Assembly (NCBI GenBank): GCA_003647765.1
Contig: QMNM01000099.1
Span: 1-6,031 of the forward strand
Direction: 5' to 3'
Length of the DNA stretch: 6,031 nucleotides
From: Candidatus Cloacimonadota bacterium
GTDB taxonomy: Bacteria > Cloacimonadota > Cloacimonadia > JGIOTU-2 > B8-G9
Below are positions 2,821 to 5,999 of the stretch, one piece after another. The stretch's first letter is position 1; every line of letters starts with the position of its first letter. The notes beneath the pieces were generated by a model. It saw only the letters and a program-made list of their open reading frames with translations. It did not search any database and was not told the origin of the DNA. The position numbers were made by a program, and so were the translations under genes.

Positions 2821-3918
2821 ATGAATCTACAAAAAATATCAATTATCTTTTTAATTGCATTGTTAATTGTTAGTTGCAGTGGCAAAAATAATGGAACTGG
2901 TAAAACCTCCAAGTCCAGCTCCAATGAGGCATACAAAAGCAAAGAAGATTATCGTAAGCCAATATCATGGGGCAAAAAAAATGTCATTTATATTTTTGCT
3001 GACAAAACAATATGGGACTATGGCAGAAATAAAATTAAACAATCATTTGAAAGAGAGTTTTTCACAACCCAAAATGAAAAACTGTTTAACATAGAAAAAG
3101 TTGATATTAAAGACATTTCTCGTTATTATAAATTCACAAATTTAATATTTTTTGCTGACATTACTAGTGATAAGCCAGTTGCTAATTATGTAAAGCAACT
3201 ATTAAGTGAACATGTTATAAATAACATAAAAACTACTGGCTCTAATATATTTGTTCAGGATGAGTTGTGGGCAAGAGATCAATTAGTGATTTTTGTTTTG
3301 GGTAAAAGTGCAGAACAGACATTACTTTGTACATTTGATAAACTCAACTTCCTTTTTGAGCAATTTAAGGCAAATGAGATGAAGCGATTAGAAAAGATTG
3401 CATATCGTACTGGTGTGAATAAACAAGAAATGAATTATGAAAGAGAGCATTATCAATGGCAGATACAATTGCCAAAATATTTCAAAACATTTCGTAGAGA
3501 TGATGAAAATAATTTTGTATCTTATTTATTGCGTGTAGAAAAATACCCAGACCGCTATCTATTTGTTTATTGGGAAAATATGCCTGAAAATAATGTATCA
3601 AAAAAGTGGCTATTTGAAAAGAGAAAAGAATTGGTATGGAAATATTATGACGAAGATGAATTCTCAGAACTGGATGTAGTTAAGGAGAATGCAACTTTCA
3701 ACAAATATAATGGGTACAAACTTTATGGAAGATGGCAGAATAAAAAATATTATATTGGCGGAGCTTTTGTTAGTTTTGCTTTTTATGAGCCAGAACAGAA
3801 AAGAGCATATATTATTGATACATCTGTATATTTCCCAGAAGGCAATAAATTAAGAGCATTATTAGAGTTAGAAATTATTGCAAAAAAATTTTTGGTGATT
3901 AGTCAAGATTTAGAATAA
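2821..3918 (+). CDS. DUF4837-like outer-envelope lipoprotein
   Basis: A 365-residue protein with a lipoprotein signal: hydrophobic stretch 5-17 and lipobox IVSC with Cys19 as the lipidated residue. Ser at +2 suggests export to the outer membrane by the usual Lol rule. A Ser/Asn/Lys-rich linker (20-45) leads to the folded part. The pattern then fits DUF4837, a lipoprotein family of unknown function known mainly from Bacteroidota: an N-terminal half with NVIYIFAD (54-61) and DELWARDQLVIFVLG (147-161), then a second half beginning near IQLPKYF (215-221) with NFVSYLLRV (231-239), GRWQNKKYYIGGAFVS (303-318) and a final FPEGNKLRALLELE (338-351). The assignment comes from remembered family features and is not proven. 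The start has no clear Shine-Dalgarno site; a nearby ATG at 2804 is in another frame and stops after six codons. It is the last gene before the terminator at 3975, downstream of pgsA. No enzymatic motif is seen. Confidence 0.75.
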   Translation: MNLQKISIIFLIALLIVSCSGKNNGTGKTSKSSSNEAYKSKEDYRKPISWGKKNVIYIFADKTIWDYGRNKIKQSFEREFFTTQNEKLFNIEKVDIKDISRYYKFTNLIFFADITSDKPVANYVKQLLSEHVINNIKTTGSNIFVQDELWARDQLVIFVLGKSAEQTLLCTFDKLNFLFEQFKANEMKRLEKIAYRTGVNKQEMNYEREHYQWQIQLPKYFKTFRRDDENNFVSYLLRVEKYPDRYLFVYWENMPENNVSKKWLFEKRKELVWKYYDEDEFSELDVVKENATFNKYNGYKLYGRWQNKKYYIGGAFVSFAFYEPEQKRAYIIDTSVYFPEGNKLRALLELEIIAKKFLVISQDLE

Positions 3919-3974: not shown

Positions 3975-3998
3975 AGGACGCTTTAGCGTCCTTTTATT
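3975..3998 (+). terminator. Rho-independent terminator of the leuC-pgsA-lipoprotein unit
   Basis: AGGACGCT (3975-3982) and AGCGTCCT (3985-3992) form a perfect 8-base inverted repeat, realistically a 6 to 7 pair stem with a 4-base loop, followed directly by TTTTATT (3992-3998). It lies 57 bases after the stop codon of the lipoprotein gene. The stem could also be a palindrome of a dispersed repeat type. Confidence 0.7.
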
Positions 3999-4231: not shown

Positions 4232-4239
4232 AGGAGAAG
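4232..4239 (+). promoter_or_regulatory. Ribosome binding site deciding the start of the small PDZ gene
   Basis: AGGAGAAG lies 4 bases before the ATG at 4244 (7 bases from its AGGAG core). It lies inside the longer reading frame that could start at 4226, so the start at 4244 is preferred. Confidence 0.8.
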
Positions 4240-4243
4240 TAAG

Positions 4244-4657
4244 ATGAGAGCAATACTTTTAACATTGGCATCTATCTTAATTGGAAGTTGTGCTTTTGCA
4301 TCTATTCATTATAATATTCCACAACCTTCGGATTATTATAAGATTAGTAATGATAGCAATATCCCATCTTTCTCAGAACTTGAATTTAGAGAAGAAAAGC
4401 CATTTCTTGGATTTGAATGTCAGAAAAATGCGGATAATTATCTGGAAATAAAATCTATCATTCCAGATTCACCTGCAAAAGAATCTCAATTGAATGTAGG
4501 TGATATTATCTTATCAATTGATAAGAAAAAAGTGGTTGATGAAAAATCATTCTATACTCTGCTCAAGAATTTACATATTGGTGATGTCATTTTCCTAAAT
4601 ATTAAAAGAGACAATGAAGTGAAGAAAATACCTTTAAGAGTAGGAAGTATTCAGTAA
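4244..4657 (+). CDS. Small exported single-PDZ-domain protein
   Basis: A 137-residue protein from the ATG at 4244, chosen over an in-frame ATG at 4226 because the Shine-Dalgarno site lies between the two and because the protein then begins directly with a signal peptide. The signal is MRAILLTLASILIGSCAFA. Two exits are possible: signal peptidase I after AFA (Ala19), or lipidation at Cys16 in IGSC. After a 35-residue linker, residues 54-135 form a PDZ domain: FLGF carboxylate-binding loop (54-57), SIIPDSPAKESQLNVGD (71-87), GDIILSIDKKKV (86-97) and a closing strand pair ending IPLRVGS. PDZ domains bind C-terminal peptides, often in periplasmic proteases and secretion machines, but no protease or other catalytic domain is present. 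Its PDZ resembles that of the next protein (RDNEVKKIPLRVGS against RDGEVRTTTLTLGS), so the two are probably paralogous. The next gene starts 23 bases later, so they are likely one operon. Confidence 0.8.
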   Translation: MRAILLTLASILIGSCAFASIHYNIPQPSDYYKISNDSNIPSFSELEFREEKPFLGFECQKNADNYLEIKSIIPDSPAKESQLNVGDIILSIDKKKVVDEKSFYTLLKNLHIGDVIFLNIKRDNEVKKIPLRVGSIQ

Positions 4658-4670
4658 TAAAATTAAATAG

Positions 4671-4679
4671 AAAGGAGAG
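4671..4679 (+). promoter_or_regulatory. Ribosome binding site of the PDZ-barrel gene
   Basis: AAAGGAGAG is a strong Shine-Dalgarno sequence. Its AGGAG core (4673-4677) is 3 bases from the ATG at 4681 and 6 bases from the second ATG at 4684, which favours the second. Confidence 0.7.
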
Positions 4680-4680
4680 A

Positions 4681-5943
4681 ATGATGAAAAAAATAATAAG
4701 TATCGCGACAATACTAATATTGATGTCAGCATCTCTTTTAGTTGCTAATGAAAATATGATTAAATTAGATGAAGGAGAGCCCATTTTACTTTCACAATCT
4801 ATGGATGAGGAAATTGAAGAATTCAAAGATGAAATGAAAGAAATGAAAAAAGAGATTAAAGAGGATGCTAAAGGGAAAAAGACCGTAAAATGGGAATTTA
4901 AATTTGACGATGATGAATCTGATGAGACCACTCCGCTTTTAGGACTTTATTTAAAGGATTTGACATTCGAAAAGATGTATGAATTGCGTTATGACCAAAC
5001 TTATGGTGTTTTAGTTACAAGTGTAGTTAGAAATGGTCCTGCATTTAAGGCTGGGTTAATGAAAGATGATATTATAATGGAATTTGGTGGAGAAAAGGTA
5101 AAGTATGAAGACCATCTTATAAGACTGCGTAATAGTCATAATGTTGGTGATAAGATTGAAGTTAAGTATTTCCGTGATGGTGAAGTAAGGACAACTACTT
5201 TGACTTTAGGCTCTCGTGAGCATAAATATACAAAAGAAGGTGAAGTTATTAAATCGAGCAAAAAGAAATTATCAGCTGGATATGGTGGTGGTAGTTGGAT
5301 TCCTGTTTGGTACACACCTGAACTTGATGATGTTAATGATTTGATAAAGTCATTTGGATTTAATGGACTTAAAGAAAGTGGCATATTCCTAAATGGCGGT
5401 GGAGGAAAGGGACCTATTGGCAAGGGACTGTTTATTGGAGGTATGGGTGCTGGCTATTCCTCTGATAAAAAAATAAATTATGAGGTTCCAAATCCTGATA
5501 ATCCTAATGACACTCTAAATGTAATTAGAAGAATGAAGTATAAAACTGGCTATGGCGGGATCACTTTAACAAAAAGAATTCCATTTTCCAGAAAAATTGT
5601 CTCTATGGCTGAATTTATGCTTGGCTGGGGTGGAAATACACTTGAAATCTCACAAGTTGACGGTGATTATAACTGGGAACTATTTGATACACAATTAGAA
5701 AAGTCAGCAAATAATTATATCAAGATTAAGAAGAACTATATCTTATTCCATCCTAAAATAGGTTTAATGTATCGTATAACAAGTTGGCTTGGTGTCAGAG
5801 CAACAGTTGGTTATATAATGAGCTATTCATATACAAATGGCTGGAATGCAGAAATCGCAGGTGATGTGTTTGAGATAAAGAAATCACCAGAAACCTCATT
5901 TGATGGAATGACTATTACTATTGGTCCCTGGTTCGGCTTTTAA
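4681..5943 (+). CDS. Exported PDZ-domain protein with a Gly-rich, probably beta-barrel C-terminal domain
   Basis: A 420-residue protein; the tandem ATGATG means the start could be 4684 (419 residues), which has better ribosome-binding spacing. Residues 1-22 are a signal peptide with probable cleavage after LVA (Ala22). Residues 40-66 are a highly charged Glu/Lys/Met helix, likely coiled coil, followed by an acidic patch (DDDESDE, 76-82). Residues 86-178 are a PDZ domain: LLGLYL loop, VTSVVRNGPAFKAGLMKDD (112-130), and RDGEVRTTTLTLGS closing it. Residues 198-420 are a Gly-rich region of alternating strands with GYGGGSW (200-206), NGGGGKGPIGKG (238-249), IGGMGAGYS (252-260), and a last strand ending GPWFGF. 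The terminal Phe and alternating pattern resemble outer-membrane barrel proteins. I do not know a function for this domain; similar Gly motifs (FLNGGGG..., GGMG) seem to recur in uncharacterised proteins of candidate phyla. No protease motif is present. It forms an operon with the preceding small PDZ gene and ends in a terminator 22 bases on. Confidence 0.8.
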   Translation: MMKKIISIATILILMSASLLVANENMIKLDEGEPILLSQSMDEEIEEFKDEMKEMKKEIKEDAKGKKTVKWEFKFDDDESDETTPLLGLYLKDLTFEKMYELRYDQTYGVLVTSVVRNGPAFKAGLMKDDIIMEFGGEKVKYEDHLIRLRNSHNVGDKIEVKYFRDGEVRTTTLTLGSREHKYTKEGEVIKSSKKKLSAGYGGGSWIPVWYTPELDDVNDLIKSFGFNGLKESGIFLNGGGGKGPIGKGLFIGGMGAGYSSDKKINYEVPNPDNPNDTLNVIRRMKYKTGYGGITLTKRIPFSRKIVSMAEFMLGWGGNTLEISQVDGDYNWELFDTQLEKSANNYIKIKKNYILFHPKIGLMYRITSWLGVRATVGYIMSYSYTNGWNAEIAGDVFEIKKSPETSFDGMTITIGPWFGF

Positions 5944-5964
5944 TTTCCCCCAATATAGTCTACG

Positions 5965-5999
5965 ACTCCCGTGCTTATCGTCAAGTGCGGGAGTTCTCT
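5965..5999 (+). terminator. Terminator hairpin after the PDZ operon
   Basis: ACTCCCGTGCTT (5965-5976) pairs with AAGTGCGGGAGT (5983-5994) around a six-base loop. Ten pairs are Watson-Crick and two (T-G and G-T) are wobbles in plus-strand RNA. The T-rich tail TTCTCT is short and interrupted, so termination may be partial. It starts 22 bases after the stop codon. Confidence 0.65.

Follow-up and report, generated by a model that had tools for sequence, protein, structure and literature searches.

A fusion of an HtrA-type PDZ domain and a predicted outer-membrane barrel is widespread, and apparently undescribed, in Cloacimonadota

A protein that joins an HtrA-type PDZ domain to a predicted eight-stranded outer-membrane barrel is encoded in the window, the whole stretch of 6,031 bases analysed here. 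The window is an entire contig of a Cloacimonadota genome of ~2 Mb in 360 contigs, which is 88.8% complete; about 11% of it may be missing from the assembly. The fusion is real and widespread in Cloacimonadota, and it is apparently undescribed. Its domains, conservation, barrel fold, β-signal and gene linkage were all established computationally. We tentatively favour a function as an outer-membrane-tethered PDZ peptide binder or receptor, which, in lineages with the linked genes, may feed the state of the envelope to NtrYX.

The features of the locus, all on the + strand, are as follows.

4244..4657, +, small exported PDZ protein of 137 aa (PDZ_2 match; lineage-specific)
4400..4633, +, PDZ domain of the small protein, residues 53-130 (Pfam match)
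4681..5943, +, PDZ-outer-membrane-barrel fusion protein of 420 aa, the conserved element (domains, conservation, predicted structure)
4681..4746, +, putative signal peptide of the fusion protein, about residues 1-22, LxA type (sequence)
4747..4920, +, charged linker, helix predicted at 41-62 (low model confidence; variable in relatives)
4927..5220, +, HtrA-type PDZ, residues 83-180, with the carboxylate-binding loop YGVL at 108-111 (Pfam, predicted structure, alignment)
5287..5940, +, predicted eight-stranded outer-membrane barrel, residues 203-420 (AlphaFold2, fold searches)
5917..5940, +, C-terminal β-signal TIGPWFGF, residues 413-420 (last six residues GPWFGF in 70/73 loci)
5964..5995, +, hairpin ~20 bases past the stop of the barrel gene (-19.9 kcal/mol, z -4.8)

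The two genes are separated by 23 bases, and each has a purine-rich ribosome-binding site (AGGAG at 4232-4236 for the small PDZ gene, AAGGAG at 4672-4677 for the barrel-fusion gene). Both N-termini are signal-peptide-like. PDZ_2 scores above the Pfam cut-off in the 420-residue protein (E=3.3e-15) and in the 137-residue protein (E=1.9e-13), and the Pfam search found no protease domain in either. The open reading frames and Pfam matches thus agree with the first-pass annotation, which had described two exported, protease-free PDZ proteins encoded 23 bases apart. The two PDZ domains are ~30% identical to each other over 71 residues. The hairpin at 5964-5995 is possibly the transcript end; it lacks a long T run and is missing from the terminator predictions. 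The contig ends 88 bases 3' of the barrel-fusion gene. Elsewhere in the window lie a gene of the Aconitase / 3-isopropylmalate dehydratase large subunit family (913-2160) and, between pgsA and the PDZ genes, a DUF4837 lipoprotein gene (2821-3918; Pfam E=4.9e-25), which a terminator-like hairpin with a T run (3975-3992) at its 3' side sets apart from the PDZ genes.

An AlphaFold2 model of the fusion protein, built from the window protein and 26 relatives, shows a helix for the signal peptide and a charged linker of low confidence, then a confident PDZ domain (83-180) and a confident eight-stranded barrel (203-420). The Lys, the hydrophobic stretch and the LxA pattern of the signal peptide recur in the relatives. 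A charged coiled coil had been proposed ahead of the PDZ; the charged segment is there and a helix is predicted at 41-62, but the helix has low confidence and the linker is variable. The PDZ model superposes on the PDZ domains of DegP, DegQ, DegS and AlgW (Z 15-18), with PDZ1 of DegP and of DegQ as the best matches (Z 17), and the NCBIfam model degP_htrA_DO matches the fusion protein over its PDZ part only (E=6e-17). In the YGVL loop, Gly109 is invariant in all 27 aligned rows. With this HtrA-type loop intact, it is plausible from the sequence that the PDZ might sense or hold C-terminal ends, as had been suggested.

Conservation within the fusion protein is highest in the barrel. Modelled alone, the barrel reached a pLDDT of 89.8 and a pTM of 0.82, and several of its strands are at least 20 residues long. 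Its top fold matches (Z 14.6-16.1) are a designed transmembrane barrel, a Legionella Dot/Icm-machine porin, NspA, OmpA, OprF and OmpW, the last four being eight-stranded outer-membrane proteins that match at Z 14.6-15.5; Foldseek matched the barrel to OmpA with E 4.5e-5. The β-signal of BAM-dependent outer-membrane proteins follows the consensus polar-x-Gly-x-x-hydrophobic-x-aromatic. TIGPWFGF conforms to it, and the pattern holds in 70 of the 73 loci. What had been called a Gly-rich, barrel-like C-terminal domain ending in Phe is predicted as an eight-stranded barrel, and the predicted barrel, the fold matches and the β-signal together support the proposed joining of a periplasmic PDZ to an outer-membrane domain.

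No curated family covers the barrel. In the window protein the region has no Pfam or NCBIfam match above the cut-off, with the Pfam model OMP_b-brl (PF13505) reaching only E=0.3 and 11.7 bits where the cut-off is 28.7, and none of the 26 relatives has a Pfam match there. On these searches, a known family was rejected as the identity of the C-terminal domain, which the first-pass annotation had proposed to examine by a profile search. The C-terminal peptidoglycan-binding domain of OmpA is also absent by Pfam, and the fusion protein stops at the barrel.

It is highly improbable that the barrel is a soluble, lipocalin-like one, in which case the whole protein would be periplasmic. Soluble barrels do match the model, at lower Z (6ohh 12.9, 2o62 8.0), and the strands alternate imperfectly in hydrophobicity: under a first definition the alternation was not significant, as 541 of 2000 shuffles reached the observed value, and under a second it gave p 0.0055, a result of small weight given the use of two definitions. 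The best natural matches, by contrast, are outer-membrane barrels at Z about 15, the β-signal with its terminal Phe is kept in 70/73 loci, and several strands have the length given above. We infer an outer-membrane location for the fusion protein. In the predicted structure, the strand order brings the short turns together with the N terminus at one end of the barrel, opposite the long loops. The N terminus is on the short-turn side and, therefore, the PDZ is predicted to face the periplasm if the barrel sits in the outer membrane.

By profile search, 99 of the 124 Cloacimonadota genomes covered carry the barrel; of the 72 genomes in the first set with a completeness of 90% or more, nine were without a full barrel match. 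The larger protein is 28-65% identical through the phylum, and since this identity is kept, its features are more than chance. A single scan of the genome collection yielded 73 barrel loci, nearly all of them titled Cloacimonadota. Of the few that bear the name of another phylum, L112 and L127 correspond to genomes assigned to the same class; the others are L088, L102 and L140. In L102 (8001-9901), from a genome titled Neomarinimicrobiota, two tandem PDZ-barrel genes lie upstream of DUF4390, NtrY and NtrX genes.

The window's genome carries a second barrel copy on another contig, truncated by the contig edge and 60% identical over the barrel. In the barrel-domain tree the two copies cluster together (100/97), with the copies of the nearest genomes close by, and the second copy therefore looks like a duplication within the lineage. 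This copy (L002:849-1613, G000:C13) is followed by a gene for a DUF4097-like repeat protein, as in relatives, and then by a convergent zinc-ribbon (topoisomerase-like) gene, not DUF4390.

The small PDZ protein did not share this conservation. Its carboxylate-binding loop is NYLEI, without the usual Gly, and 58 other genomes contain one clear homologue (E 4e-20, 38% identity), which has unrelated genes beside it. None of the relatives' loci read has a small PDZ gene beside the barrel gene. A conserved two-gene PDZ operon is ruled out by these neighbourhoods, since no relative read has the pair and the sole clear homologue is encoded elsewhere; the pair had been put forward as a unit, with lack of conservation as neighbours named as an observation that would speak against it, and the claim fails for the pairing and leaves the fusion untouched. 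The small PDZ protein is a lineage-specific accessory, and the pairing is incidental.

In contrast to this pairing, a recurrent partner emerged downstream of the barrel gene in relatives. The barrel and DUF4390 are both present in 76 genomes, and in 48 of these, from nine families, they lie on the same strand, 46 to 3,705 bases apart. DUF4390 is thus found downstream of the barrel gene in 48/99 barrel-bearing genomes, and within three genes downstream in 37 of the 68 named loci having at least one downstream gene. In the loci read, DUF4390 is usually followed by NtrY (HAMP, HisKA, HATPase), whose gene usually overlaps it, and then by NtrX (receiver, sigma-54 activator). In the window's order, a DUF4097 gene often lies between the barrel gene and DUF4390. 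DUF4390 is the domain of PlrP, which was recently proposed, on genetic evidence, to act as a periplasmic third component of an NtrYX-family system and to inhibit the phosphatase activity of the sensor (PMC13001219); in Rhodobacter sphaeroides, NtrYX regulates cell-envelope genes (PMC7240162).

The linkage is not universal. In four genomes DUF4390 is present but no barrel was detected, and 23, the window's own among them, have the barrel without a detected DUF4390. Family f3, which holds the Cloacimonadaceae-type genomes and is the largest family of the phylum, has the linkage in none of its 42 barrel-bearing genomes. In the window's 88.8% complete genome, searches with a single protein, the Pfam family and a profile gave no DUF4390 and no canonical NtrY operon, both of which were rejected as candidates there; the histidine kinases looked at have other architectures. 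The PDZ-barrel protein cannot depend on NtrYX everywhere, because the window's genome has no detected DUF4390 and family f3 keeps the protein unlinked. DUF4390 was also ruled out as the PDZ ligand inside the NtrYX operon: its C-termini are not aromatic, and therefore no local PDZ ligand is evident.

On the favoured, tentative reading, the 420-residue protein would be exported, with the C-terminal eight-stranded barrel inserting it into the outer membrane and the short linker displaying the HtrA-type PDZ into the periplasm. There the PDZ would bind free C-terminal ends, most likely those of unfolded or in-transit outer-membrane proteins, or else of a partner envelope protein, making the fusion an outer-membrane-tethered receptor or scaffold. 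An outer-membrane PDZ encoded beside DUF4390-NtrYX suggests an outer-membrane input, and in the linked lineages the protein would most likely be that input of a DUF4390-NtrY-NtrX three-part system. PDZ occupancy might then alter the PlrP-like DUF4390 protein of the periplasm. That protein would in turn determine how NtrY is balanced between kinase and phosphatase activity and, through this balance, the NtrX-dependent transcription of envelope genes. Ligand binding by the PDZ, the identity of the ligand and any contact with DUF4390 or NtrY are what we infer. A general outer-membrane peptide binder is the safer claim, because signalling leaves the barrel-only genomes unexplained. We consider it unlikely that, in a stronger form of this scheme, a phylum-wide outer-membrane PDZ receptor reads the C-termini of misassembled outer-membrane proteins and signals through DUF4390 to the sensor kinase with no need for a DegS-like protease.

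A quality-control or chaperone role is possible, if on the doubtful side. Here the outer-membrane-tethered PDZ would capture the C-termini of outer-membrane proteins and hand them to BAM or HtrA, and the NtrYX linkage would reflect shared regulation only, with no signalling. The resemblance of the PDZ to PDZ1 of DegP and DegQ, the presence of the protein in lineages and genomes without DUF4390 linkage, the window's included, a TPR (BamD-like) gene and PpnP upstream of the barrel gene in several loci, and an HtrA-type protease also present in the window's genome all fit such a role. A DUF4390-NtrY-NtrX linkage in nine families is, however, hard to explain by chance, and no bamA gene was recognised adjoining the barrel gene in the loci read. 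It is distinctly improbable that the protein is a structural scaffold, whose PDZ would keep one particular partner, such as a protein of secretion or one linked to the wall, at the outer membrane, much as type II secretion uses PDZ domains to hold secretion components, with the barrel only as an anchor. The barrel is small and is the best conserved part of the protein, and non-protease PDZ domains with secretion roles are known in type II secretion (PMC12369372), but secretion genes were not recognised among the recurring neighbours and the nearest PDZ relatives are HtrA-type.

The phylum also encodes other exported PDZ proteins, a parallel that counts in favour of the preferred reading; the long translation that was read contains three PDZ-like repeats. 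These exported multi-PDZ genes were encoded with an ECF sigma factor in 9/9 loci read, and in eight of the nine an anti-sigma-like membrane gene was recognised between the two; the ninth genome (G003) has a profile match as well. Units of ECF sigma factor, membrane anti-sigma-like protein and exported multi-PDZ protein are seen at L038:576-2772, L150-L157 and L158-L187. A conserved SEF motif marks the anti-sigma-like proteins; a variable linker follows it, and in 27/30 the last residue is Phe/Tyr. Judged by sequence, this aromatic C-terminus looks like a ligand of the neighbouring multi-PDZ protein and, if so, recognition of aromatic C-termini would be used in Cloacimonadota envelope signalling. 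In the window's own genome, neither an anti-sigma-like protein of the SEF kind nor a triple-PDZ protein was detected.

Bacterial PDZ domains are familiar chiefly from proteases. A PDZ-barrel beside DUF4390-NtrYX offers a concrete candidate outer-membrane signal for a two-component family about whose natural inputs little is known, and the protein is a marker for an almost uncultured phylum. The open-access literature searched yielded no description of a PDZ-outer-membrane barrel fusion or of this protein, and within it the earlier statement that no system of this architecture had been described holds. In a microbial PDZ survey, PDZ-protease combinations make up 88% of the proteins that were classified, and searching the text of that survey revealed no outer-membrane barrel fusion (PMC6411480).

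Compared with known systems, the PDZ of the fusion resembles those of the HtrA family (DegP/DegQ/DegS) in sequence, in fold (Z about 17) and in the type of its carboxylate-binding loop. HtrA proteins, however, have a trypsin-like serine protease domain and are soluble or anchored in the inner membrane, whereas the fusion matches PDZ models only and is predicted to be anchored in the outer membrane by its barrel. The barrel shares with the OmpA N-domain, NspA, OprF and OmpW the predicted eight-stranded up-and-down architecture, the short periplasmic turns and a β-signal ending in Phe, but is only about 10-13% identical to them in structure alignments; OmpA carries its peptidoglycan-binding domain after the barrel, whereas the fusion carries a periplasmic PDZ before it. 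The gene order of 48 relatives, with the barrel gene upstream of DUF4390 and NtrY/NtrX homologues next in the loci read, recalls PlrP (DUF4390)-PlrS/NtrY-PlrR/NtrX, although the described PlrP-PlrS-PlrR system has no outer-membrane PDZ component and the window's genome has no detected DUF4390. With DegS-RseA-sigmaE, the fusion has in common a PDZ that could read the C-termini of outer-membrane proteins, ligand binding being presumed for the fusion; it differs in having no protease, in its predicted location in the other membrane and in its other downstream regulator.
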